In this document: positions 47,439 through 64,000 of the stretch, piece after piece
Layout of the letters: each line of letters begins with the position of its first letter
Position numbering within the stretch: position 1 is the first letter of the stretch
DNA from: Phaeotremella fagi
Lineage: Eukaryota > Basidiomycota > Tremellomycetes > Tremellales > Phaeotremellaceae
Direction of reading: 5' to 3'
Assembly: GCA_001599715.1 (NCBI GenBank)
Contig: BCHU01000014.1
Location: 898,858-962,857, forward strand
DNA length: 64,000 bases
Position numbers and translations under genes: made by a program
The notes under the pieces: generated by a model
The model's input: only the letters and a program-made list of their open reading frames with translations
Told to the model about the DNA's origin: nothing
Database searches by the model: none

Positions 47439-49516
47439 CTAAGCAGCCGAAGCACGAGTAACATCAACGGGTGCTTGATTTCCAGCATCTTCAGCTGTCT
47501 TCTTGAATTCCTCTGGTAACATGTCTGTTCTCTCGCCTTCAGTCATTCCACCGAGCTTTTCTTCCTCGGTAGGTTCAGAGATTTTAAGTACGGCTGGGAC
47601 TGTGAATTCTGTCAGCATATTTCTAGTGCAAGATTAAGAGCCAAATATGACTCACGTGCAACGAGTAAAGTTACAGCTACGAGAACCCAGGTCGAAATGA
47701 ATTGACTTTTTCCTGGTACACCATCAGCTTGAAGAGCGTATGCGACAGCAGTTCCAACTGAGAGTGAGACTCTGTAAACTGCAATGAGTCTTCCAGCAAG
47801 TTGAGGAGTTGAACACATGGCACCAAGAAGCCAGTACGAGTACTACGCATTCTCCAGTTAGTCGATCACAACACATGAAGATGCAAACCATACTCACCCC
47901 TTGCCAAAGACTGTCGAGCATACCATAGAAGAAGTAGAGTGTAGCAGGACCCCCATAGCCAGAAGATCGGAATACGATCCATTGAGTAGGGTTTTGTTCT
48001 CTGAGCAATTCAAACGCCAAACCTCCACCCATGATGGTGTTAGCTACGATAAACAGGAAGACCCAAGTGATGATAGCTCGTTGTGGTCTGGAGAACCATG
48101 GCATATCACACATGAAACCGATAACGAATCCACCAAACATCTGAGCCAACCAGTAAAGAGCTGAGTTGAGAGAACGACCACCTAGATCGAATGAGAGACC
48201 ATTGACGATGTTTTGTTGATAGTTGTAGAACCTTTTCGTTATTTTAGCAACAGAAAGCACCCCAAACTAATGATGACGAAACTTACCAATTCGCACAGAA
48301 AAACATTGGAATAAGGTAAAAGACCCTAACACTTATCAGTCTTGCCTATCCAATGAAATGACTCACCGTTTCTCATGACGCAAAGATTTCAGAGCTTCAA
48401 TCTCCCTGTTAATCGTACGTTTGAATATAGTAGCAAAAGATCCTTTAGCAGCTTGATCACGAGGATCATGTCCAGCTTTTGAACCATCTGATCGAACAAC
48501 TTTCCAGAAAGGTAACAAAGCAAACGACAACACGGAACCGAGGATCATAATAGAGATGAAAGCCCAGTAAGTTGAATTTGTGATTGTTCCCGAATCTGTT
48601 CGACCCAAATTTTGACTCAATGAGATGAAAGCTCCGATCATACCGCCTGAATTGAAGATTATCCAGAAGGTAGCGAAGAATCTTCCTTTTTGATGGGGGA
48701 GGGGGCTTGTGGTAACAAACGAATATCAGTAAAGTGCATGTAATTCTAAGCAGAAGACTTACTAAGAAATCATCATAGCCCCTTGAATCAACCAGAAGAA
48801 AGCTGAACCTAAACCCAGCAAGGCCCCAGAAACAACGACAAAAACGCCCCCACCACGAATAGCGTAGTTCAATAAAGCTCCTGAATAGAGTGCATAAGTC
48901 CATGCACCCAAGGCGATCCCGTATACACCAATGACTTCGAAAACTGGAAGACAGATTGGTAAATACGAAGCGGCAGCTGTTGAGTACAAAGCTACACTAG
49001 CTTGAGCTGAGATTTGGGCTAGACTTGATGTCAACTTTTGAGAACAGATGCAGTACACATTCAAACTTACGATCAACATTTCCACCTCCACCTAAACCAG
49101 CTAGGGCGTTGTACATTCCAGGAAGGCAGAATGCGCAAAGAGCCAAAAGACAGATTTGGGTCCAAGATGAGGACTAAAATTTGGTTAACAAGATCCAAAT
49201 GGTCACACGATAACGCAAAACTCACATAGACTCTCCACGACAACGAAGTGTCGACGGCCAATTGTTCATTTGGATGAGGAACAACTTGTGAAGTCTGATC
49301 GACTTGATCTTCGTTCGCGATACCTTTCTCCATTTCAAAAGTAGACATGTGTAAAGTTTCAGGGGAGGGATTTAGTGCGTTTGTGAAATTGGTTATGCTT
49401 GTTGAACGACGATCATTCGTTTTTATAGGTAAGTTTCCAACCTTCAACAACACTGATTCCGGAGATTGACCAGCACTTGATCTTGGCAACATTCCGCCGT
49501 TTTGGTCATTAACCAT
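47439..49516 (-). CDS. UNC93-like (DUF895) MFS membrane protein, copy 2
   Basis: This is a multi-pass membrane protein of about 560 residues and a paralogue of the gene at 5962. A long hydrophilic N-terminus (MVNDQNGGMLPRSSAGQSPE) precedes SSSWTQICLLALCAFCLPGM and AGLGGGGN, the family signature. WLIQGAMMISYPLPHQKGR is in the equivalent loop. FDLGGRSLNSALYWLAQMFG and ATLYFFYGMLDSLWQG mark the second half. The acidic tail ends VDVTRASAA. It shares a 290-base divergent promoter with an intronless Gfo/Idh/MocA dehydrogenase. Its place at the left edge of the GlcNAc cluster makes it a candidate uptake protein for an amino sugar, but that is inference from location only. Confidence 0.85.
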
Positions 49517-49546
49517 TTTTGCAAATAGGTATTCTTCGGACGTCAG

Positions 49547-49806: not shown

Positions 49807-50880
49807 ATGGTCCAATCGAACAATCAATCATCTTCAATGTCGAAACCTAGAACAGAAATACCACCCCTGCGTACCGTTGTCATAGGTCTTGGACAAATGG
49901 GTAAATCACACGCACTTGCATATCACAAATCCCCCGAGTTCAACATCATCGGTCTTGTCAACAGATCTCCAGTAAAATTATCGCCAGAACTCTCAACCTA
50001 TCCATTCCTCACTTCGTTTCAAGATGCCTTGGCACTGAAACCCGATGTAGTCGCTATATGTACCCACGTAGACACCCATCCGGAATACGCTATCCAAGCC
50101 ATGGAAAACGGTTCACATGTTTTTGTCGAGAAACCACTGGCTCATACGGTAGAAGAAGCAGAGAAAGTACTTGCTGTTGCTTCCAAAACCAAAAAGAAAC
50201 TCTTAGTTGGTTACATTCTACGTCACCATCCATCCTGGATTGAGTTTACTCGATTAGCCAAAACTCTCGGTACACCCAATGTCATGCGTATGAACCTTAA
50301 TCAAAGATCTACTGGTGAACCTTGGAATATACATAAAAGAATTATGGAATCTACATCACCAGTCGTAGATTGTGGTGTCCATTACGTGGATATCATGTTG
50401 TCAATAACCCAAAGTCGACCAATCCAAGTAAGAGGTATGGGAGTTAGGTTGAGTGAAGAGATCGATAAAGATCAAGTAAACTATGGTCATTTACAGGTCC
50501 TGTTCGAAAACGGAAGTGTAGGATGGTACGAGGCTGGTTGGGGTCCAATGATATCGGATACCGCTCATTTCGTTAAAGATATCATGGGACCCAAAGGATC
50601 CGTATCAATCATCGCAAATGAGAATTCAGATTCAGCGGATGTAATGAATCACACCAATACTTCCAATATTCGGTACAGGGTAGGCGAGAAGGATGAGAGA
50701 ATTTCAATGGATAATGAACCGGATCACGATGAGTTGTGTGGGTTGGAGCAACTGTATCTTTTACGGGCTATCAGGGAGGATTTGGACCTTACTCAGGATG
50801 GTTTGGATGCTGTTCGATCACTGGCTATAGTTCTTGCTGCTGATCTATCTATGCGAGAACGTAGAGCGGTAGATCTATAG
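49807..50880 (+). CDS. Gfo/Idh/MocA-family oxidoreductase, intronless
   Basis: This single-exon gene encodes 357 residues, start MVQSNNQSSSMSKPRTEIPP. The Rossmann NAD(P) site is RTVVIGLGQMGKSHALAYH. VAICTHVDTHPEYAIQAME and the hallmark FVEKPLAHTVEEA follow, with the catalytic Lys in the E-K-P motif. VVDCGVHYVDIMLSI supplies the His of the active site. The C-terminal half is the usual sheet domain. The family oxidises sugars, inositols or sugar nucleotides at a ring hydroxyl. No introns are present, unlike nearly all neighbours including the related gene at 51627. This could reflect recent acquisition from bacteria or intron loss. It is divergent from the UNC93-like gene. Confidence 0.9.
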   Translation: MVQSNNQSSSMSKPRTEIPPLRTVVIGLGQMGKSHALAYHKSPEFNIIGLVNRSPVKLSPELSTYPFLTSFQDALALKPDVVAICTHVDTHPEYAIQAMENGSHVFVEKPLAHTVEEAEKVLAVASKTKKKLLVGYILRHHPSWIEFTRLAKTLGTPNVMRMNLNQRSTGEPWNIHKRIMESTSPVVDCGVHYVDIMLSITQSRPIQVRGMGVRLSEEIDKDQVNYGHLQVLFENGSVGWYEAGWGPMISDTAHFVKDIMGPKGSVSIIANENSDSADVMNHTNTSNIRYRVGEKDERISMDNEPDHDELCGLEQLYLLRAIREDLDLTQDGLDAVRSLAIVLAADLSMRERRAVDL

Positions 50881-51626: not shown

Positions 51627-53469
51627 ATGGTTATTCCGGTAGCTACACCTCAACCAGTCAAGTTAGCTGTTGTAGGAGCCGGTCAAAGAGGTTCAGTGAG
51701 TCCATCAACTACATCTAGACTGACTTCATAGAGATACGCAGATAATGCAAAGATGAATCCTAGCATGGCGACAGTCGTTGCTGTAGCTGATCCAAAGCCT
51801 TACAGAAGGAATAAAATGGGTGACGATTTTGGGTATGTTTTGACAATATTCACCAGCGCATCTGTTAACTTGAGATTTAGTTTATCGAAAGATAAACGTT
51901 ATCAGGATTGGAGGGATTTACTGAATGCCCCTAAGATTGCTGATGCCGTCGTCATAGCTACTCTTGTGAGTCACTTGTTCTCAACATGATCGACAACTGA
52001 CTCTCGAAAGGATGATACGCATGCTGAACTGGTTCATGCATTCGCTGCTCAAGGTAAGTGGATGATAGATCGATGAATGACCGCTAAATTCTCTTAGGTT
52101 ATCATATACTGTGTGAAAAGTAGGTCCAAGTCGAGCTCGATCTGACATCTAGACCAATGGCAACGAACATAAATGACTGTCTCAACATGGTGAGAGACGT
52201 TCAAGAAGCCGGTATAATCTTCGGAATTGGTCATGGTAAGATACCATAAACCAAGAGCGACAATCTGTTAATAAACCAAATCTAGTTCTAAGATATTCAC
52301 CATACAATGTCGCTGTTAAGAAAGTGATCGACTCTGGTGTCCTGGGAGAAATCGTCAACATCGAGGTTAGTTGAGATGTATTTCCAAAACATCCACTCAT
52401 ACTCTCTATTATAGCACTGCGAACCAGTCGGTTTCGAGCATTTCGCTCATTCCTACGTAAGCCGCTATCTACAAGCTTCAATGTGTCAATCTAACACTCA
52501 TCAGGTCCGAGGAAATTGGAACACAGAATCAGAAACGAGTTTCTCACTAATGACGAAATGCTGTCAGTGAGTCCCACCCCCACTCCCCAACCTAACACAC
52601 CAGTGATCTCGACATTTTGTCGTTCTACTATTCCGACGCCAAAGGTCGCACAGTCCCAGCCGTAAAAGTCTCGTCTTTCGGTTCACTCTCCCATTTCCGT
52701 CCAGATAAGAAACCGAAGGAAGCAGGCAGCGCGACAAGATGTTTGGATTGCGCTTACGAGTCTCAATGTGCTTATTCTGCTAAGAGGAGTTATCTTGATC
52801 CGTTGATTAACAAAACGGTGCTCAAGGATGGAAACGTAAGTTTGTCATCTCATTGACACCCAACTGATGTCTTTTAGAGGGCAGAAAGATTCATTGAAGC
52901 AGTGTTGGATATTGAGAATGTCACGGATGCTCTTAAAACTGGTCCATACGGATTGTGTGTCTACAACGGTCAAAACGATGTTGTCGATCAACAGGTGAGC
53001 AGTCATCAATACATATCTAATACTTGCAGGTAGTCAACATCGAATACGCCAATGGCGCAACAGCTTCAATGACAATGGTAGCATTCACCGAAGCAGAATG
53101 TGATCGCTTCACCAGAATTCACGGTACCAAAGGTGAATTATCAGGTGACATGAAGACTTTCGTAAGTAAACTTCTGTATTCTACACCTCAAGATTGACTA
53201 CTGATAAATGGTCTTAGACGGTATTCGATTTCCTAACAAAAGAGAAAACATACTACGAACCTCCATCAGTTGAAGGTGGCCACGGAGGGGGTGACAGTGG
53301 ACTCTCCCTAGCGTTTTTCGAAGCTATGCAAACGAGATCCCAAGCTCCGTTGAAAGTCACTCCGGAGGACGTTCTTAACAGTCATCTACTTGTTTTCGCT
53401 GCTGAACAATCAAGGAAGGAGGAGAGGGTGGTTCGTTTGAAAGAGTTTAAAGAGAAATTGGTGAGATAG
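51627..53469 (+). CDS. Gfo/Idh/MocA-family oxidoreductase with Cys motif
   Basis: This is a dehydrogenase of about 430 residues spliced from about eleven exons, start [20 protein letters not shown]. Exons give [17 protein letters not shown], then [18 protein letters not shown] and [19 protein letters not shown]. The CEKPMA core is restored by a 33-base intron at 52120-52152. [20 protein letters not shown] carries the active-site Cys/His region. [20 protein letters not shown] has a C-x2-C-x5-C pattern also seen in fungal relatives annotated as StrI-like or inositol dehydrogenases. [18 protein letters not shown] closes the substrate side. The oxidised sugar or inositol is unknown. It is convergent with the Zn2Cys6 regulator of the GlcNAc block. 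Confidence 0.9.
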
Positions 53470-53589: not shown

Positions 53590-56329
53590 TTACAAGGTCA
53601 TCATGAATCGACTATCATTAGTGACAACAGGGTAAGGAGATGTCCCCCGTGTCGTCAACTTCATACACAAATGTTTGAGAGCTGTCGCCGTGGAACGTGA
53701 TAAATGAACTGATGGCAAACCACCACCCAGAAGTTGGTCCGCGACTTGACGGAAGATTACAACGGCTATCGAGGAATAAGTATCTCCTTCACCAGTATCA
53801 AGACCTACCCTCATCAATGGTTACAGAACAAGTCATAGCGTTAGAGGGATCTGTCAAAGTTTCTGCTAAAACACTAGCAGCTGTGAAGATCATCTATCCA
53901 TCTCAGCACTCATCTCAAATCACGAAACTCACCTTGAAATACACCGCAGGTAAATCAGAGATATTCATATCCGGAGTCCAATTCCTACATTTCTCTAAAC
54001 AAGCCACAGAAGCTTCGACAGCAAAAGCACGACAAGCTCTGAGTAATCTGCCATCTGACAGACGAGCCAAGGCTTTGATCGCATGATGATTAACAGTGAG
54101 TTTGGCGTACCAACCGAAAATTTCTAATTGTTGAGTAACGCTTGATGGGAGTTTCAAAAATTCGAGATCTGTCTGCCACCAGTCTAAACAGGCGTTTGTG
54201 GTTGATATCAATCGGTTGTATTCTGTTGCTATTGATTTTTCGGCTGAGGATGATGATTTTTGGGCGATCAGGGATTGTTTGTAGCCCCAATCTCTTAGGA
54301 TGTGGATTAATCGCGCGTTGTAGGTTAATAGGTGATCACCTTGGGGCTGTTGGTCGTTGGGTGTGGAGGGTTCTGACATGGTCAAGAGTTGACAGTATTT
54401 CTTGGGATCGTAACGAGGTTCTTGATATTTCTCCTGATTCAACGATTCCATTCCATCCGTTATCTATACTGAATGTCAGTAAAAACATTCCTAGATATGG
54501 AAATCACCCACATAGCACATCAACCACACTCTAGCCATGTCTCGTCGATCAGCCGCTCGTCTTACAGGCAGCAATCCACAAAGTTCTCCTAACGTCGGTG
54601 GATGCATAGCAAGCGAAGTCAACTGAATCAAGTCAGTATATTTCAAATTCAAAACACACCTTGATCCATCCCCTTCCCCACCTGAAAGCAGATTTCGCAA
54701 TAGCACTAGCCTGATTCCGATCACTCATATAAGTAGCCAACACACAAGCTCCAATAATCTCTTCAGGTCCAATCCCCAACTCCGGATCCAAGTCGACATC
54801 CTCAACATCATCATCGGTGGCTGTAGCGGTAGAAGTTCCATCGAGATGAGAGATGAAACTGTCGGCTGGTGAGTTGACCCATAGATTCGCTATTTCAGAT
54901 GCTAGGATACTGCGATACGAATGATACATTGGTGAACGTTCTGAAGCGACTAGACAGAGAACTGATAAGATGAAGGGGGTGATTGCAGGTGGACCAGCGA
55001 TGAGATAAGGGAAATGATAGAATTCGAGTGTGTAACCGTAGAGATATCGAGATAATCGACCGTGAAATCTGGAACACGATCAGTCAAGATACGAAGAATC
55101 ACTAGCAGACTTACAAGCTAATCAAGCCCAACGCTACATCTTGTGGGATAGCTCCTCGTTTGACAATATTCGGTCTAGGATCTTCAGCGCCCAGCGCCAG
55201 ACTCTGTAGCATAGTCCTAGGTTGAATATTCGGTGATTCGTTGGGGTTGATCATGAGGTTAGTGGTCGGTGAAGGCAGCAGCGGCTCAGCGTTTTCACGC
55301 AAAGGGAAAGGCTGGTCGAACGAAAGACTCCCCGCTGCCAGACTACTAGCCAAGTCATTCTCTGATGTCGACCTAGTTGATGAAGTCAAGGTTTGGTTGA
55401 ACTGGGAAACAGGGACAGATGTTGATGAAATCGATTGGGAGTGTTGTCGTTGCGGATGTTGATTTTGTTGACCAGAAGCCATGGAGTTCATGGGCGGCAT
55501 AGAAGGTAATCTCTGGAACATGTCGGATTGTTGTTGTGGTGGTTGATCCGGCGAGAAGGAAATAGGTCGAGGAATAGGAGGACTTGAAGTTGTAGGTTGA
55601 AATGTGTAATTTGATGAGAAGATATTTTGTTGCGTCATGTCGTCAGTGGAATTGTTGTGGTTCATGATATCAGAAGTGGAAACGCTTTGAGAACCAAACA
55701 TCCTAGGTTGTGTGGTAATATCTTCACTTAGAGATTGAACCTGTTGACTTCCTTCCATTCCATTTTGCCCAAAGAAATCCATCCCCAATGACGAGTTCTT
55801 CCTATCAACCTGTCCGTCATCCTCTTCACTCTCCTCCTGTCTACTTCTCTTATTACTCCCTCCCTGACCTTGAGCCCAATTCAAATTTGATTCGTCAGGT
55901 GAACTCCATCCTCGAAGAGTACTGATTTCTTTGGCTGGAGGTTTGAACTTTTCCAAATCTGATAATATAGATTGAGCTGTAGATTTGTCTCCATTACGAC
56001 CATCACTATTTTCAACGGCTTTTTGAAGTAGGAAACGGACCGCTTTATCGAGTTGAGCAAGTTGATCCACTACGACGATCGATGTTGTTGCTATAGCATA
56101 TCTCCAGTCGACATCAGGTTTCTACCATACCAATGAGCGTTGCATAAACATGATTGAAATACACACTCACGATTCCCTTGGGTGCAAAGACACAAACTTC
56201 ATCGCGTGATATACATCTATCACAGATTTTATTCGAATTCTGTAGTATACACTTGACCTTGTCTCTACGACATGTAGAGCAGGCTTTGGCAGTGCGATCC
56301 TTCTGACTCTCTGAAGTGTCTTTAGGCAT
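53590..56329 (-). CDS. Zn2Cys6 transcription factor next to GlcNAc genes
   Basis: This is a nuclear regulator of about 790 residues, start MPKDTSESQKDRTAKACSTC. The zinc cluster is C-ST-C-RRDKVK-C-x8-C-DR-C-x6-C, followed by VFAPKGI and an intron. A coiled-coil-like segment (QLAQLDKAVRFLLQKAVE) follows. Then comes a long Gln/Ser/Asn-rich region of about 250 residues. The fungal transcription factor domain spans about 53600-55150, with SRYLYGYTLEFYHF-like text and RDWGYKQSLIAQKSSSSAEK. The last exon ends NDSRFMMTL. It starts 146 bases downstream of the GlcN6P deaminase stop on the same strand. Known ascomycete GlcNAc clusters use an Ndt80-type factor (Ron1/Ngs1-linked control), so a zinc cluster regulator would be a different solution. 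The pairing is inferred. Confidence 0.87.
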
Positions 56330-56474
56330 TGTCTATGGAAGACTGCTACCAAGTTTTACGAGTGACAATAACAAATAGATACATAGGAGTCACCACCTAA
56401 ACTAAAAACGGCGTAAAAAGCGATACCCCCACTCTACGGCACTTTGCTTATCACTCCCCTGTCTACCACTGACA

Positions 56475-57677
56475 TCATGCAGCTGTAATTCGGGAACTCG
56501 CTATTTGACCATATTTAGCTTCAACTTCGTCTTGAACTTTTTCAATGGATTTGAAATATTTAACTGTCTTGACTCGAAGTTCCAAAGTTGCGTCCTCACT
56601 ACAAGTAATCAGTAACAGCAGATAATTATAAATCCAAATCACCACTCACTCGCAAACTACCAATGCCCATGGATGCGATTGTAGAGCTGAAGCGGTTACC
56701 ATGTGATTAACCCCACCTTCAATCATTTGACTCAAAGCCAACGATTTGTTTTGTCCAGTGACGACTAAAACTACTTCTCTTGCGTCCATCACAGTCTGGA
56801 CACCGACAGTTAAGGCCATACGGGGAACAGCTGCTAGATCGTTGTTGAAGAAACGACAGTTGTCCAAGATAGTTTCGTATGCTAACGTCTTGATTCTCGT
56901 TCTTGAGGTTAACGAGGATCCGGGCTAGGTTGGATCAATTAGCTGCTGGGACGCTTCAGATGGTTGCCATCCCAGTACTCACCTCGTTGAAAGCGATATG
57001 TCCATCTTTAGAAATCACGATCAGCATTCTGTCAACAGCTAGAGCCAAATAAACTTACCAGCCCCAATTCCACCCAGAAACAAATCAATACCTCCAGCAG
57101 CTTTGATAGACGCCTCGTAAGCTTCACACTCTCCATATAAATCTTCTGCTTCTCCATTCAATATGTGCGTGTTTTTGGGGCTGTAGGTAAGTATAACAGC
57201 ATCTTGGTTTCACCTACTTGATGTCAACCAAGGAAAAGAAGTTTTTGAACATGAACGTGTGATATGATTCTGGGTGATCACGAGAGATTCCAACGTATTC
57301 ATCCATATTGACTGATAGTGGGGGTTAATCATTCAGAAGTTTGACGTAGTAAGGGAAACAAACAAGTGATCACATCCTATACAATGTCAATTACACTCCT
57401 AAAATCCGGAAACACAGCTCTGACCCACCTTGAAACTGACAGTCCCTGCTTTGTGCAATTCTACCAAACGTTTATAAACTGGTAAAGGACTCGATCCAGT
57501 TGGTAAACCAAGAACAAAATTTGGATGTTCATTCGATGGTTTGAATTTATTGATTCTACTAGCGATATACTCCGCAATCTAGGGTTGTTAGGATAAAGTT
57601 ACTGCTTTGATATACCGCACAACAATACGCACATAGTTACCAACTTCAGCTTTAGTATCTCTAACCGTAAGACGCAT
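56475..57677 (-). CDS. NAG1: Glucosamine-6-phosphate deaminase
   Basis: This is a cytosolic hexameric-type isomerase/deaminase of about 270 residues that converts glucosamine 6-phosphate to fructose 6-phosphate and ammonia, the exit step of GlcNAc use. Start [39 protein letters not shown] is the phosphate loop. [20 protein letters not shown] is rebuilt across a 13-base microexon (57364-57376). [17 protein letters not shown] has the catalytic Asp/His. [13 protein letters not shown] and [15 protein letters not shown] follow. [14 protein letters not shown] is near the C-terminus. Similarity to animal and fungal deaminases is strong throughout. It is divergent from the GIG1-like gene and tandem with the Zn2Cys6 regulator. 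Confidence 0.95.
57364..57376 (-). other. 13-base microexon of GlcN6P deaminase
   Basis: On the minus strand the exon reads GATGTGATCACTT, preceded by TATAG and followed by the donor GTTTGT. Including it gives VSFK-DVITF-NMDEY, which matches the family. Omitting it breaks the frame. Confidence 0.8.
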
Positions 57678-58071
57678 TTTGATGTACTTTTCAAATGCTT
57701 TTGAAGGATGTTTGATGTTGGGCAAATATTTTGTTTATGAATTCATTGGACTTTAGCTTCAACTATAGGTGACAAAGGAACGGAGAAAATCGCCGAGATG
57801 GTTCATGTGGTGAGAAAAATTATTCGCCGGTAAATTTTGCGAGGTTTTTTGGTGCTGGTACTGCGTGTGCTCTGTATGAACGTGCATCATATGGGTTCAG
57901 TATTGGGGAAAGGTATCTTCGTTAGTCGTGATTGAGAAGGAATCACCTGAGAATGCAATAACTCTTCTAACTATTGACGTTTTCAAGTCCAAAGCAACAT
58001 TGCGATTTTATCAATTCGGAGATTCATTTTAACACGCAACGAACGCTTTCACTCAGCGTTTGCAGGACTAC
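57678..58071. promoter_or_regulatory. Divergent promoter, GlcN6P deaminase / GIG1-like
   Basis: This 394-base gap separates divergent starts. It has CGG-N9-CCG at 57781-57795 and a CGGTAAA half-site at 57828-57834. The same CGGTAAA string occurs in the other divergent promoter of the cluster (60577-60583 and, reversed, 60608-60614). Shared control of the four genes is inferred. Confidence 0.4.
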
Positions 58072-58929
58072 ATGACGCATTCAGAGAAATATGGTCTAAG
58101 TTGGGAAGAAGTTGAGGAAATTGTTGGTGAGATCATATTTCTGGAAGTGGAGACGATAACTAATTTGAATAGCTACAAATAATCTGAAACGATTCCATCG
58201 ATATCCAGATCAACTCTCCCTCTACAAAGCGCACATGCAAAGGATCCACATAGAATACGGCTCAGTTCAAAACTACATCCTGAAAGAACAACTTGGTTGG
58301 AACTCTATCTCTGATCTCTCACCGTTCAGGGGATGCAGCACGTCCCGAAGTCCTGTTGACGTGATCAAATGGGAAAAATGTCCGCATCAGAACATGAGTC
58401 ATATCGTTCGAACTGCTGTGTGTGAGGAGGAGATCTATGGATTATTTCAAGAAGGATTGTTGAGTGAGGAATGGAAAATTGCTGAGACTCCTTTCCCATA
58501 TGCTATACCTTCGAGTGAGTACATATCCCTCAAAGAGAAACTGACTCCAATCCAGATTCAAAACATTACATCGTTTGGTCAAAAGTCCCCATTCTGCATC
58601 CATGTATCGTAGGATCAGAATTTCAACCATCAACAAGAGAGATGGCATGGTATCACATCCAATCAAGAGGTCTATCAGGGTTAATCAGCAACGATGAAAA
58701 CACAATGGATACATTCACCGGTCCACTTCTCACAAAGTCAACAACAATCTCCAAAGACGAGGATGAAATGGTTCGAAAAGCCATCTATAGCGCTGCGAGG
58801 TATATTCGAACGTTTGTCGAAAGAGTTTGGGGTGCTGAATACGAAGCGGTTTATTTCGCTAATCCACCTAGTTTACAGAGTGTTCCTGATCTAGCTCATT
58901 TTCATTGTATGGTCAGGAAATGTAAATGA
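58072..58929 (+). CDS. GIG1: GIG1-like DUF3605 protein (GlcNAc-induced)
   Basis: This is a protein of about 255 residues in three exons. Start MTHSEKYGLSWEEVEEIV joins by a 46-base intron to ATNNLKRFHRYPDQLSLYKA. IEYGSVQNYILKEQLGW is the family signature, and FPYAIPS joins over a second intron to NSKHYIVWSKVPILHP. REMAWYHIQSRGLSGL and a final HFHCMVRK complete the DUF3605 fold. In Candida albicans the DUF3605 protein Gig1 is strongly induced by GlcNAc and affects sensitivity to a chitin synthase inhibitor, but its biochemical role is not established. Here it is divergent from GlcN6P deaminase and sits inside the GlcNAc gene set, which supports the same link in a basidiomycete. Confidence 0.88.
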
Positions 58930-59073
58930 CGATAGGGGTTGGGTTTGGTAGATGCCTTAGAATCGTAGAGTTGTATATAGAGAAACTTATAGAAAGATCA
59001 AATGTACCGCCTGTCTTTACGAGTACATTCAAAAATGCATATCAAGACGCGAATACAGGTTCAAAGTAAAGAT

Positions 59074-60532
59074 CTAAGCTTTAAACGTTTCCACACCGTT
59101 CACCCAAGTACTTTTGACCTTCCCATCCAAACTTAGAATACACAAATCAGCGTCCATCCCAACATCCAATCTACCTTTCCTAGCAGCTACTTCACCACCC
59201 AACATCTGTGCTGGATGTAAAGTCGCACATAAAAGCGCTTCTGACAGAGGGATATCTGCGAATTTAGATAGATTGACCACACATTCAGATAATGATATTG
59301 CTCTGGTATCATGTCAGTCAAGTGTAAATTTGCAGAGCCATGCACCTACGATCCAGCTAACGTATCCGTTCCGTCGATAGTAACCTTCTGACCTTGTTTA
59401 CGGAATGAAACCCCTTCTCTCCATTCATGAACACCATCAGAGAGTTGAGGATCAAGCATTGGCATAGCTAAGCGTCTTGTCAAAAGTGATCACCTGTGTC
59501 TGTACAAAACACATACCGTCGGTGACCAGGATACACCCAGCTTTACAAGATCGATAAGCGATCCTAACAGTGTTAGGATGGGAATGGAGACCATCAACGA
59601 TAATTCCAAAATAAGGGATGAACTCTGAAGATCCCAAAAGTCCAATCACTCCTGGATCTCTATGATGAATAGGGGGCATAGCACTAGATGGTCAGTCTAG
59701 TGTAATGAGCTATGACCTACTTGAAAAGATGGGTGATCATTCGAGCACCTTTGTGAAATGACTCACTGGCGATTTCGAGAGTAGCGTCGCTAAAATCAGA
59801 ATGGACGGTATAGATCAAACTTACCTATGCCCTATGCTTACGGTAACACCTCTTTCCTTCAAATCATGAATACAGCCTAGAACGCCCTCAACATCAGGTG
59901 CCAGTGTTATCATCTTCACACCATCTTGATCTAAACCTTCACCATAAACTTTGTTGAACGTCGATATATTGTTTTTAGCCGTTAACAGCAATGTATCGTT
60001 ATGTGCTCCTCGTCGTAGAGGGTTCAAAAAGGGTCCTTCTGCATGGTAACCAAGAATATTTGCTGAGCCTGATATCGTCCTGGGACCAAGTAGACGTAGA
60101 AGCTATATCATCTATTAGTTGAATCAGAAGTGTGACTTACCCTAGCATACCATTCCTCCTTCTGCGTAACTATCGTAGGAACAAAACTCGTACATCCAGT
60201 CTCCGTGATCCTCTTCGCTACCAAATCAAGTCCAGAGATATACTTGTCCGCATCATCCAGTTCTGAAAAATCTACACCATAAGCCCCGTTAATCTGAACA
60301 TCGATAAGACCAGGTGAAATCAGATCCCCATTCAGGTCAATAGTTTTATAAGGCGGAACCAAATCTCCATAGAAATGATTTTGACCGTCTACGATGATAC
60401 CTTGACTGCGAGAGATATATAAATCACCTTTCACAGCCTTTGACTCATCAGTCTACTTATCAACGTAAGACCACTCACTGTACCATCAGCTTGAGCTAAG
60501 TAACCATTGGTGAATCGTATGATTTCAGACAT
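59074..60532 (-). CDS. DAC1: N-acetylglucosamine-6-phosphate deacetylase
   Basis: This is an amidohydrolase-fold enzyme of about 410 residues that removes acetate from GlcNAc-6-phosphate in the cytosol, the step before the deaminase. Start [37 protein letters not shown] opens the barrel. [17 protein letters not shown] carries the metal-binding Glu. VSIGHSDA and [16 protein letters not shown] carry His ligands and substrate contacts. VTDAMPMLDP supplies the catalytic Asp and is formed across an intron. The protein ends [13 protein letters not shown]. All expected residues are present. It is divergent from the GlcNAc kinase with 310 bases between the starts. Confidence 0.95.
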
Positions 60533-60842
60533 TCTGTTTTGAACGGGGAAGAAATTCCAATTCTGGAAACATAAACCGGTAAACAATTTAACTGGCTCCA
60601 CGGCGTTTTTACCGAGTCTAGTTTTCGTGGGTGCCGGAAAAGAAACCTTCTTTCGGAGTCATCGCAAATAACACACGCTGGTCTCGATTAGAGGGTTATC
60701 GTATGCGTGTGTATGTATTGGACAGGTAGAAAATTAATCTCCAGAATGAATCAATCCTTACCGGTATAAGATATCTATTTACAGAACAAGATTCGTTCTC
60801 GATTCATAACTTCTGTACATCTCCTATTCAACTTTTCACAAA
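60533..60842. promoter_or_regulatory. Divergent promoter, GlcNAc-6-P deacetylase / GlcNAc kinase
   Basis: This 310-base gap holds a CGG-N8-CCG element at 60601-60614 and CCGGTAAA at 60576-60583, described separately. The closeness of the starts suggests co-expression of kinase and deacetylase. Confidence 0.5.
60601..60614. promoter_or_regulatory. CGG-N8-CCG element
   Basis: CGGCGTTTTTACCG lies between the two divergent GlcNAc genes. It matches 13 of 14 bases of the element upstream of UNC93-like copy 1 (7980-7993). Confidence 0.4.
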
Positions 60843-62245
60843 ATGGTAAACATCGTAGCTGGACCTTCAACATCAGGTGACTTGATCTTATGTGCTGATG
60901 GAGGAGGTTCGAAAGTTTGTGTTGTCATTCGAACTCATGACGGTGTGGAAACCAGAGGTTATGCAGGACCATGTAACGTGTAAGTTTCCATTCAAACCAT
61001 AGGACGAATTACTAATCGACAACCCAGTCAAAGTGTCGGTTATCCACATGCTATAAAAGCTATTCTTCAAGCTACACACCAAGCATTATCACTACTACCC
61101 TCAAAATATCTACCTAGCAGTTATATACCACCCAAGCCAGTACCAGAACAACTTCCTACCCCAGAACTCTCACCTGAAAGGTCACCAGAACCATCGTCAA
61201 TAAACCTCGGTGAACGACTTAACGAACATCCATTGTTATCTTCATCATCATTACCAGCTGGATTATTCAAGTTTTGTTGGTTGGGGCTGGCTGGGATAAG
61301 TACACAAACAGATGTACAGGCTTTTATGCCTTATGCAATGAAGCTCGGGGTTAGCAGTGAACAGATTCTTATTTCGAACGGTAAGTCAGTGTCGATCAAG
61401 TGCTGTATGTTTGCTGAACTCTAGGATAGATGTTAACTTCCTTGCGGCTCCAGCTTTGAGTCTACCTAAAATCGACCATGTCGTAGCTTTGGTATCTGGT
61501 ACTGGGTCTGTTGGACGTACGATACGAGTAGATAAGAAAATTGGAGGCAGTGTTGATGATCATCAAAGCGCTACTCAACTGGCGATGCAGGATGTAGGAG
61601 TCTCTGGAGGATGGGGATATACGTAAGTTAATTGTAATCACTGACATCAAATTCTGATCAGATACTTGTAGACTTTGTGACGAAGGGTCTGCGTTCTGGA
61701 TCGGACGTCTGGCTATCCGTTCATTACTATCTGCTGCCGACAGACTATCCTCAAGAACGATTTATGCCATGGAACCACCGCCAGTTCTACCCTTCCATCA
61801 AGATTTACTCAGTTATTTCTCAGCAAAAGATCCAATGGAACTCATCGACATTGTCAGTTTAACCAACGAAAGTGCTCAAGGGTTAAGTGTTGGAGAGGCC
61901 ACAGCCAGGAGGAATGCCTTGATGGCAGGTGCAGCCAGGGTGGTTTTCAGATGGGCATTCGATGATCATCCAAGTGATTCTTCTCGTCGAGAAGCGATGA
62001 GAATAGTCAACAACTCGATACAACCGTTAGTCGATCTAGTGGCTTCCTTGCTCGGTGATCAAACTATCGTCGTACCTTCAAGAAGTGCATTAGCTCTTGG
62101 TGGTGGATTGATGAATTCAGAAGGTTACAGACAACTTTTGTATGATGGGATAAGGAAAGAGGGTATCGTGTTTGCTGAGACGATTTTGGTGGAGGACGCT
62201 GCTGGAGCTGGGGTACGAGGGATAGCTAGAGCTTTCTCGTCGTGA
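60843..62245 (+). CDS. N-acetylglucosamine kinase, BadF/BadG ATPase family
   Basis: This is a sugar kinase of about 420 residues with the actin-like ATPase fold. Start MVNIVAGPSTSGDLILCADG. DGGGSKVCVVI is the phosphate-1 loop. A Pro/Ser/Glu-rich insert of about 40 residues lies near residues 80-120. FCWLGLAGIST, SNDVNFLAAPAL and VALVSGTGSVGR (phosphate-2) follow. DEGSAFWIGRLAIRSLL and SRSALALGGGLMNSEGY (adenosine site) complete the family pattern of animal NAGK. It would phosphorylate GlcNAc to feed the deacetylase encoded on the other strand. The GlcNAc kinases of ascomycete clusters are hexokinase-like, so this is a different kinase family. ManNAc or glucosamine are possible alternative substrates. 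An acceptor at GATAG near 61431 is needed to avoid an in-frame stop. Confidence 0.88.
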
Positions 62246-62437: not shown

Positions 62438-63093
62438 CTAGGTTGACTGATTTTGGAACCACTCTTCCACAGCGACCTCCAGACCTTGCTCTGAGCTCCC
62501 TATATAATCAACCTTATCCATAATCACTATCCCGTCAATTTTTGAGAGATCTTCAATAACCGGGGTAATAATGTCTTCCTCAACCTCTTCCCTTCTTTTC
62601 TTCAATTCCAAATCATACTTCCTCTTCGTCTCTCGATGATTTTCGTCAAGGAAGAATCGTAAATCGAAGGACTCCACCGCTAAACCTGATCTATCAAACA
62701 AAGTCATTGTCAAAGAAAACAATTCATCCCTCTCCGTCTCATCCAAATAACATCCACTAAGATGATAGCAATCTTCGTTCAAATCCCTCTTTCCCGCTTC
62801 AAGGATTTTCACCATTTTGGCAGTGATTTCAGTTGAATTCTTAGATATCTCTTTCCACATTCTACCACGAACCACTCGAAGCTCATCACATCTTTTACCG
62901 ACAGCGGCGATTCGTGTTGGTCCTAACGATTTAAAAAGAAATTTAGTAATTATCCTTGCAGCGAGTTGATATCCGTTGCCAACGATGGGTTCCAAGTTGA
63001 ACCACCCGCCTCGAACGTCGTTGACAAGATTGTTTTTCGGGTTTTGGTTGACTTTTCCAGAGTGAAACTCGATGGTTTTGATTTCCTTCCCAT
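62438..63093 (-). CDS. Unknown charged helical protein
   Basis: The long exon (62438-62922) encodes a Lys/Glu-rich protein ending VEEWFQNQST, with a predicted helical stretch around KRKYDLELKKRREEVEEDI. No ATG begins the long open frame. I place the start at 63093 (MGRKSKPSSFTLEKSTKTRK), joined by an 83-base intron (62923-63005, donor GTGGTT, branch TACTAAA, acceptor TTAG) to GPTRIAAVGKRCDELRVVRG. This gives about 190 residues in frame. I do not recognise the family. It is the last complete gene before the chromosome end and is convergent with the GlcNAc kinase. A 5'-degraded gene is an alternative reading. Confidence 0.5.
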
Positions 63094-63512
63094 TTTTCTA
63101 TCTTATGATTACGTTCAGTCGAAGAATCGAGAAAAAACAGATCTGCGTTCTCAAAGCCTTAGTCGGCACGAAGCCCTGCTTTAAAAGACCGATTGAAAAA
63201 AAGCTCAAAGGACTGCTATCAGATTACTAATATCATTCCAACGATTAACTTGTAGGAAGAACTTTGTCGAATGTGATATTCTGGCACTGATAATTCTAAC
63301 CAGAACCCCTCCCTATCAGATCAAGAAGCTGCAACTGTGTTCGCTTGGAGACCTAAGCAATCAACACCTCGCTCTCGCTTGATTCGCCTGATCGCTTACG
63401 ACGATCTTCCGGAAACATTGCAATGGCACTAAGGTCAACACTTTCCTTGAAATATAAGGAATGAGCATAACATGGAAAGTCTCAGTATATCCAAGTGTTA
63501 GTGTAACATATC
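63094..63512. other. Subtelomeric intergenic region
   Basis: This gap lies between divergent genes and contains the promoter of the aldo-keto reductase. No repeat, transposon or further gene is seen, so unique sequence reaches to within 500 bases of the telomere. Confidence 0.4.
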
Positions 63513-63979
63513 ATGACCATCATCATCAAACAAGATCGAGTTCTCCATACTGGGAGATCAATTCCTGCTCTTGGTTACGGTTGTTCTGAATTCTGGGGTC
63601 CTGCTGGACCTGAACCTGACGCCTATGTTAACAAGTTGAACAATGCATATGGAGTAGGATACCGGTATGTCCACTCTCCTATGAAAACACCTTATCGCAA
63701 CTGAAATATGTGACAAGACTCTTTGATTGTGCTAAGAAATATGGTGAGTTGTGCTTCCAATGCGGGTCTTCTTTACATTTCCATTCTTTAAAACCCTATT
63801 ACAGGAACGGAGAGCAGTGAGTTTTGGCTACAAGACAGATCTAACTTGCATATCAGAGGTTGGACAGTTTGCACAGAGAATTCGATCCGAAGTTTATCTC
63901 ATTACCAAATTCATGGAATATACACCCGGGGACACCGTAGAAATCGTTCTTCCAAAGATGCGCGATTGCGTCAGACTTA
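63513..63979 (+). CDS. Aldo-keto reductase, truncated by telomere repeat
   Basis: This is the N-terminal part of an NADPH-dependent (alpha/beta)8 reductase. Start MTIIIKQDRVLHTGRSIPAL. Four exons join in frame: GVGYR (ends 63664), LFDCAKKY (63718-63743), a 12-base exon GTES (63805-63816), and VGQFAQRIRSEVYLITKFME (from 63857). The catalytic Asp and Tyr lie in LFDCAKKYG and the Lys in ITKF. The fourth residue, His, would lie further on. The frame is intact to about residue 115 of a family that usually has about 300, then runs straight into TTAGGG-type repeats. The gene is therefore a terminal fragment, apparently made by a chromosome break healed by telomere addition, or the contig end misses sequence. 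Confidence 0.75.
63805..63816 (+). other. 12-base microexon of aldo-keto reductase
   Basis: GAACGGAGAGCA lies between ACAG (63801-63804) and a GTGAGT donor at 63817. It contributes G-T-E-S after KKY, matching the Y-G-x-E step of aldo-keto reductases. Flanking introns are 61 and 40 bases, the latter with a TCTAAC branch site. Confidence 0.7.
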
Positions 63980-64000
63980 GGGGGGGGGGTTAGGGGGTTA
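63977..64000 (+). repeat. Telomere repeat tract, TTAG(n)
   Basis: The window ends TTAG(10)-TTAG(5)-TTA. Repeats of TTAG followed by three to five or more G are the telomere type of Cryptococcus and relatives. The G-rich strand points to the right end, the correct orientation for a right chromosome end. Only about two and a half units are present, so the call rests on position, orientation and repeat form. The run of ten G may be a base-calling error. Confidence 0.75.

Follow-up and report, generated by a model that had tools for sequence, protein, structure and literature searches.

Layout of the N-acetylglucosamine gene block

We analysed a 64,000-nucleotide stretch of Phaeotremella fagi DNA (contig BCHU01000014.1, here C14; the whole stretch is called the window), which carries genes predicted to take N-acetylglucosamine (GlcNAc) to fructose-6-phosphate. 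The contig ends with the window, its last base being 962857, and telomere-type repeats (63977..64000, plus strand), with TTAGGGG at 63977 and 63990, close it, which confirms the subtelomeric position given by a first-pass annotation of this DNA. The edge of the GlcNAc gene block lies 1.7 kb from the telomere. Going inward, the order is a kinase gene (60843..62245, plus strand), a deacetylase gene (59074..60532, minus), a GIG1-like DUF3605 gene (58072..58929, plus), a deaminase gene (56475..57677, minus) and a Zn2Cys6 regulator gene (53590..56329, minus). Deaminase and GIG1 form one divergent pair and deacetylase and kinase another, with intergenic gaps of 394 and 310 bases as divergent promoters (57678..58071 and 60533..60842), and the GIG1 and deacetylase genes are convergent to one another.

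Spliced proteins were scored against Pfam and NCBIfam at the curated cut-offs. The GlcNAc-6-phosphate deacetylase (dac, 403 residues) reaches 258.2 bits with TIGR00221 (nagA; cut-off 225.65) and 59.0 bits with Pfam Amidohydro_1, and the glucosamine-6-phosphate deaminase (dam/NAG1, 281 residues) reaches 376.5 bits with TIGR00502 (nagB; cut-off 236.9) and 77.2 bits with Pfam Glucosamine_iso. The GIG1-like protein (256 residues) scores 93.8 bits with PF12239 (cut-off 23.6), and the predicted GlcNAc kinase (418 residues) 32.7 bits with PF01869 (BcrAD_BadFG; cut-off 31.5). All four genes at 56475-62245 contain introns and splice to full-length proteins in intact frames; in the deaminase model a microexon of 13 nt (57364..57376), set manually to fit the protein expected there, yields the sequence VSFK-DVIT-FNMDEYVG. 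The four genes in two divergent pairs are thus present where the first-pass annotation had put them, with families above the cut-offs, and the whole route from GlcNAc to fructose-6-phosphate that it saw encoded there stands as a prediction from family assignments. Its range of 53590..62245 does hold five genes, but stops short of three upstream genes, for a likely transporter and for two oxidoreductases.

The kinase, deacetylase and deaminase genes are linked within 5.8 kb. The chance of three given genes lying no more than three genes from a fourth is about 5e-10, taking an assumed total of 7,500 genes, so that coincidence is practically excluded. No second GIG1/DUF3605 copy was found in the P. 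fagi genome.

The kinase is of the BadF type

A protein search with the window kinase gave 73 matches, from Kwoniella, Cryptococcus (including C. neoformans), Tremella, Trichosporonales and Microbotryomycetes, together with environmental proteins and two ascomycete proteins. Over 27 aligned sequences, D19-GGG, N163, D231-E-G-S-A and G371-GG are invariant, and D164 is kept in at least 90%. The profile of these 27 sequences, searched against PDB, matched S. tokodaii hexokinase (56.3 bits), C. acetobutylicum MurK (44.5 bits) and human NAGK (35.8 bits). For the structure comparison, the predicted fold of the Cutaneotrichosporon oleaginosum ortholog (mean predicted local distance difference test score 85.1) stood in for the window kinase; its matches were, in order, S. 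tokodaii hexokinase 2e2o, MurK with GlcNAc 8zo3 and human NAGK 2ch5. The PF01869 score, the profile matches and the ortholog fold agree that the kinase is BadF-type and not hexokinase-type, as first annotated, but the label of an animal/bacterial NAGK proved too narrow, with human NAGK ranking behind the archaeal BadF-type hexokinase and clostridial MurK. The fungal kinases share fold and motifs with these BadF/BcrA-type sugar kinases, yet form a branch of their own, the modelled ortholog being 16-20% identical to the nine best chains. A Hexokinase_1 family search of the P. fagi genome matched on contigs C3 and C15 only, in a type of search that intron-split genes can escape. In the literature we found no paper joining BadF, N-acetylglucosamine kinase and fungi.

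In a kinase tree of 44 rows (midpoint root, long-branch warning, animal NAGK sequences not among the rows), the window kinase pairs with a second P. fagi copy on contig C16 (support 100/94; 249 of 410 aligned residues identical). Next to these two come the remaining Tremellomycete rows in the tree (98/95), and Microbotryomycetes fall outside this group.

As a side observation, both ascomycete matches (P0063 by scan, P0064 by its listed domains) combine a GKRP/MurQ-type SIS domain with a BadF kinase, possibly a one-protein route for N-acetylmuramic acid (MurNAc).

Kinase and deacetylase genes in other Basidiomycota

Matches to both kinase and deacetylase were obtained under one organism name for 13 genomes. 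In 12 of them the longest contig reported for the kinase is identical to the base to that reported for the deacetylase (50,090 to 1,845,870 bases), which we read as the same contig, bearing in mind that a search row can represent more than one sequence (the C. wingfieldii deacetylase row covers nine) and that the contig reported may be another member's; Vanrija albida is the exception. The locus tags are two apart in Phenoliferia (005116, 005118) and three apart in Microbotryomycetes sp. NB124-2 (006942, 006945), and the other ten genomes show linkage with no measured distance. Relatives in other species were sought for the kinase, the deacetylase and the regulator. In a deacetylase tree of 34 rows (midpoint root), the window protein pairs with that of Tremellales sp. 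Uapishka_1 (98/91) inside a Tremellomycete clade (100/100), on an end branch of 0.41, and the Microbotryomycetes, Wallemia and Agaricomycetes rows form separate supported groups whose order is not settled.

Part of this arrangement has been described in Cryptococcus neoformans, where a review places DAC1 next to HXK3 and reports co-expression of the two with NGT1 and NAG1 (PMC10218983). The tags given for Cryptococcus neoformans/deneoformans are CNAG_06098 for NAG1, CNAG_06186 for NGT1, CNAG_06190 for DAC1 and CNAG_06191 for HXK3 (Ye et al. 2022, via PMC10218983). Deacetylase and kinase are thus adjacent as in P. fagi, the transporter is four locus tags off and the deaminase belongs to the same tag run, but lies 92 numbers away, and the excerpted text of PMC10218983 mentions no GIG1 or Zn2Cys6 partner. 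Cryptococcus HXK3 is probably the same BadF kinase, and DAC1-HXK3 would then correspond to the P. fagi pair.

Judged by sequence, the kinase of P. fagi is no local invention, having relatives throughout Tremellomycetes and Microbotryomycetes. The kinase-deacetylase arrangement looks old and half known already, because relatives and shared contigs span two subphyla and the DAC1-HXK3 adjacency has been published. As an alternative to a deep basidiomycete origin, the pair may have been transferred between Tremellomycetes and Microbotryomycetes. If there was any assembly independent of the ascomycetes, it would lie deep in Basidiomycota, or the pair may have passed between its lineages.

Regulator, transporter and oxidoreductases

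The regulator (825 residues, with paralogs on contigs C16 and C11) has the spacing C-x2-C-x6-C-x8-C-x2-C-x6-C, the exact Zn2Cys6 pattern, and scores 16.7 bits with Pfam Zn_clus PF00172, below the cut-off of 21. The six-cysteine spacing supports the earlier call of a Zn2Cys6 rather than an Ndt80-type protein. An Ndt80 family search of the P. fagi genome gave nothing, and its positive control was silent too, so that absence is not claimed.

Upstream lies a candidate GlcNAc transporter of the UNC-93 type in the major facilitator superfamily (MFS; 47439..49517, minus strand, first exon set by hand), which scores 25.8 bits with PF05978 (cut-off 22.9) and 27.3 bits with MFS_1, below the cut-off of 33.4. 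It would fill the role of NGT1, presumably itself a UNC-93 family member. Divergent from it is a first Gfo/Idh/MocA oxidoreductase (49807..50880, plus; PF01408, 86.6 bits), and a second (51628..53469, plus; PF01408, 55.5 bits, in a partly mis-spliced model with a shortened N-terminus) is convergent with the regulator gene. The transporter and the two oxidoreductases are probably part of the cluster. Transporter and regulator are tied to the set because a transporter paralog sits by the BadF kinase of contig C2, paralogs of both lie on C11, and a regulator copy adjoins the C16 kinase.

The motif CCGGTAA has four sites in the window, both strands counted, and three of them fall in the divergent promoters, which together span 704 of the 64,000 bases: one at 57827 between deaminase and GIG1, and two between deacetylase and kinase, at 60576 and, in the opposite orientation, at 60758. 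It was chosen after the fact, from a scan of all 6- to 9-mers.

Copies at other chromosome ends

A protein search of the P. fagi genome with the window kinase gave three BadF genes, in the window, on C16 and on C2. Family searches of this genome miss intron-split genes: that with PF01869 was empty despite these three, and that for UNC-93 missed the window gene. On C16 (290321-293435) the second kinase copy, which reads intact in a three-intron model, adjoins the regulator copy. The latter is cut by the telomere, since TTAGGGG-type repeats at the contig end are set inside its coding sequence and its similarity to the window regulator begins only at about residue 479. Beside it lies a 13-residue match to exon 1 of oxidoreductase 2 (E 0.34), a possible remnant. 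The last 8 kb of C11 hold a transporter paralog and a regulator paralog, 4.4 kb apart. From these sequence matches, cluster parts have apparently moved between chromosome ends.

By eye only, the contig-end sugar genes of C11 (1053458-1064507) also include lactonase-, epimerase- and amidohydrolase-like open reading frames (ORFs). Between the window kinase and the telomere there is a 219-codon open frame without a Pfam match (62441-63097, minus strand), and an ORF at 63513-63977, resembling by eye the start of an aldo/keto reductase, continues into the telomere repeats and is apparently truncated.

Related gene sets on contigs C1 and C2

Contig C1 carries a deacetylase-like gene (839465..841451; 548 residues with a long insert) and, about 5 kb away, a deaminase-like gene (846168..847475, rough model), with an ORF between them that is DnaJ-like by eye. 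The C1 deacetylase lies far from the others in the tree (end branch 2.65), and the kinase protein search found no kinase copy on C1.

The strongest new lead is outside the window, on C2, where five genes make up a candidate MurNAc set: a divergent BadF kinase (862389..863581, minus strand; 29% identical to the window kinase), an UNC-93-type transporter (863936..865808, minus; a paralog of the window transporter, 59% and 62% identical in the two best stretches), a beta-lactamase-family hydrolase resembling PBP4B (866495..867889, plus; best NCBIfam match PBP4B at 165.7 bits, under the cut-off of 385), a gene whose start looks Zn2Cys6-like to the eye (868197..870146, plus) and a MurQ etherase (870268..871518, minus; TIGR00274 311.6 bits, cut-off 302; PDB 4s12 247 bits). 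The main ORF of the kinase has no Pfam match, scores 40.6 bits with the NagK equivalog (cut-off 370) and has as its best PDB match MurK 8zo3, a weak one (21.7 bits, E 7.6e-4). In a wider kinase tree (25 rows) it branches next after the window clade, a placement that is unsure because the branch is very long (3.19). Contamination is an unlikely source, since all five models contain introns, the contig measures 2.3 Mb and the neighbouring ORFs are ordinarily eukaryotic by eye. In E. coli, murQ has murP and the PBP4B gene yfeW as its neighbours. Searches of the P. fagi genome for GH25 muramidase and NamZ families gave no match although their positive controls did, a weak negative as intron-split genes escape. 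A literature search on MurQ and fungi gave no title about a fungal MurQ among the 12 listed of 31 papers; one of these concerns fungal defence proteins and is without the word MurQ (PMC6272156).

By family assignment, the C2 set is a candidate fungal MurNAc pathway, whose MurQ step would supply the window deacetylase with its substrate, GlcNAc-6-phosphate. Tentatively, and with slightly more doubt than belief, we suggest a two-armed amino-sugar regulon: the window would be the chitin arm, handling GlcNAc, and C2 the bacterial-wall arm, sending MurNAc by way of GlcNAc-6-phosphate to the window deacetylase and deaminase.

Comparison with ascomycete clusters

The same three chemical steps are clustered in ascomycetes, in the Candida NAG genes and in T. 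reesei (hxk3, dac1, dam1, ron1 and nag3/ngs1), where the regulator sits inside the cluster as in P. fagi. In the excerpted text of Kappel et al. (PMC4950302), the cluster has hxk3 and the Ndt80-type ron1, in line with the contrast that the first-pass annotation had drawn: the ascomycete kinase is hexokinase-like and the regulator Ndt80-like (PMC4950302, PMC12176254), whereas those of P. fagi are BadF-type and Zn2Cys6. The ascomycete cluster also holds the GH3-GNAT protein NGS1 (PMC4950302, PMC12176254), for which no search was made in P. fagi. As far as the excerpts of these papers go, gig1 is GlcNAc-induced in T. reesei (PMC12176254) and, in a kinase mutant of Yarrowia, goes up along with the NAG genes (PMC8658026), and in C. 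albicans GIG1 and NGT1 are located elsewhere than the NAG genes (PMC7151181).

Interpretation

Sequence comparison makes it highly probable that the window holds a subtelomeric cluster by which this Tremellomycete yeast would use GlcNAc. In this reading it is a telomere-proximal version of an old basidiomycete pair of kinase and deacetylase genes, and parts of it have been copied to other chromosome ends, where one is broken. The UNC-93-type protein would import GlcNAc and the BadF-type kinase would turn it into GlcNAc-6-phosphate, which the predicted deacetylase and then the deaminase would carry to fructose-6-phosphate. The Zn2Cys6 protein would switch on the divergent pairs in the presence of GlcNAc, GIG1 would be a co-induced accessory, and the two oxidoreductases may work on side sugars. 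Two features are apparently new, the compact block that takes in GIG1, transporter and regulator, and the movement between chromosome ends.

Several observations weigh against this interpretation. The window kinase clears the PF01869 cut-off by 1.2 bits only and scores 41.2 bits with the NCBIfam NagK equivalog NF046058 (cut-off 370), so that its sequence does not settle the substrate. Kwoniella has 16 kinase rows, and a deacetylase only in K. shandongensis among 120 listed of 6,209 matches. The regulator, searched with residues 375-775 as the query, has only five relatives among the best 7,994 candidates, including Vanrija humicola, Cutaneotrichosporon oleaginosum, C. cavernicola and Kockovaella and none named Cryptococcus or Kwoniella, which gives no ground for treating it as the pathway's general partner. 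Regulator and kinase matches share the same longest contig in C. oleaginosum (2,699,508 bases) and Kockovaella (1,071,374), weak evidence as such contigs are long; in V. humicola the two contigs differ (1,657,197 and 1,793,818), and C. cavernicola is without a kinase row. CCGGTAA, picked post hoc, is not present in the gap before the C16 kinase, which makes it only a lead. Lastly, given the deacetylase-like and deaminase-like pair on C1, another GlcNAc route is possible and the window set need not be the sole one.

The breadth of the kinase family bears on whether the cluster is instead for a different amino sugar, or for a wide choice of them (MurNAc, N-acetylmannosamine, glucosamine) with GlcNAc one substrate of several. 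MurNAc kinases and a hexokinase are among the BadF-type enzymes, the nearest solved relatives are the archaeal hexokinase and MurK with no GlcNAc-only enzyme among them, and the two neighbouring Gfo/Idh/MocA oxidoreductases have no assigned substrate. The block's own deacetylase (nagA-type) and deaminase (nagB-type) nevertheless fit GlcNAc, and MurNAc would need MurQ, which sits on C2 beside its own BadF kinase; we consider a different or broader substrate unlikely. The C1 pair, and the regulator copy already cut by a telomere on C16, would also suit a window set that is a drifting subtelomeric duplicate while the working pathway uses C1. Against such drift, which we regard as quite unlikely, the window genes splice to intact frames, the deacetylase and deaminase score above bacterial equivalog cut-offs, the window deacetylase groups with the Tremellomycetes and has a far shorter end branch than the C1 protein, and C1 yielded no kinase. 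The first-pass annotation had favoured independent assembly of the cluster in P. fagi, pointing to a kinase family and neighbouring regulator unlike those of ascomycete clusters; the tight linkage of deaminase and GIG1, for which no search was made in other species, could be added in its favour. This is not borne out by the kinase-deacetylase linkage in two basidiomycete subphyla, the kinase and deacetylase clades that fit the classes and the published DAC1-HXK3 adjacency, and we hold such local assembly to be very improbable.

The GlcNAc cluster of P. fagi suggests that the same sugar route has been clustered in Basidiomycota round another kinase family and, in this lineage, beside another regulator type than in Ascomycota, so that kinase and control would be exchangeable parts of it. 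For GIG1, a co-induced gene, it gives a position among the clustered GlcNAc genes of a second phylum. Several chromosome ends carry parts of the set, with one part cut off by a telomere. The analysis of the cluster also led to the candidate fungal MurNAc pathway; if that pathway is real, a eukaryote would be feeding on a peptidoglycan sugar, and the BadF kinase, UNC-93 transporter and Zn2Cys6 protein would make up a reusable basidiomycete module.

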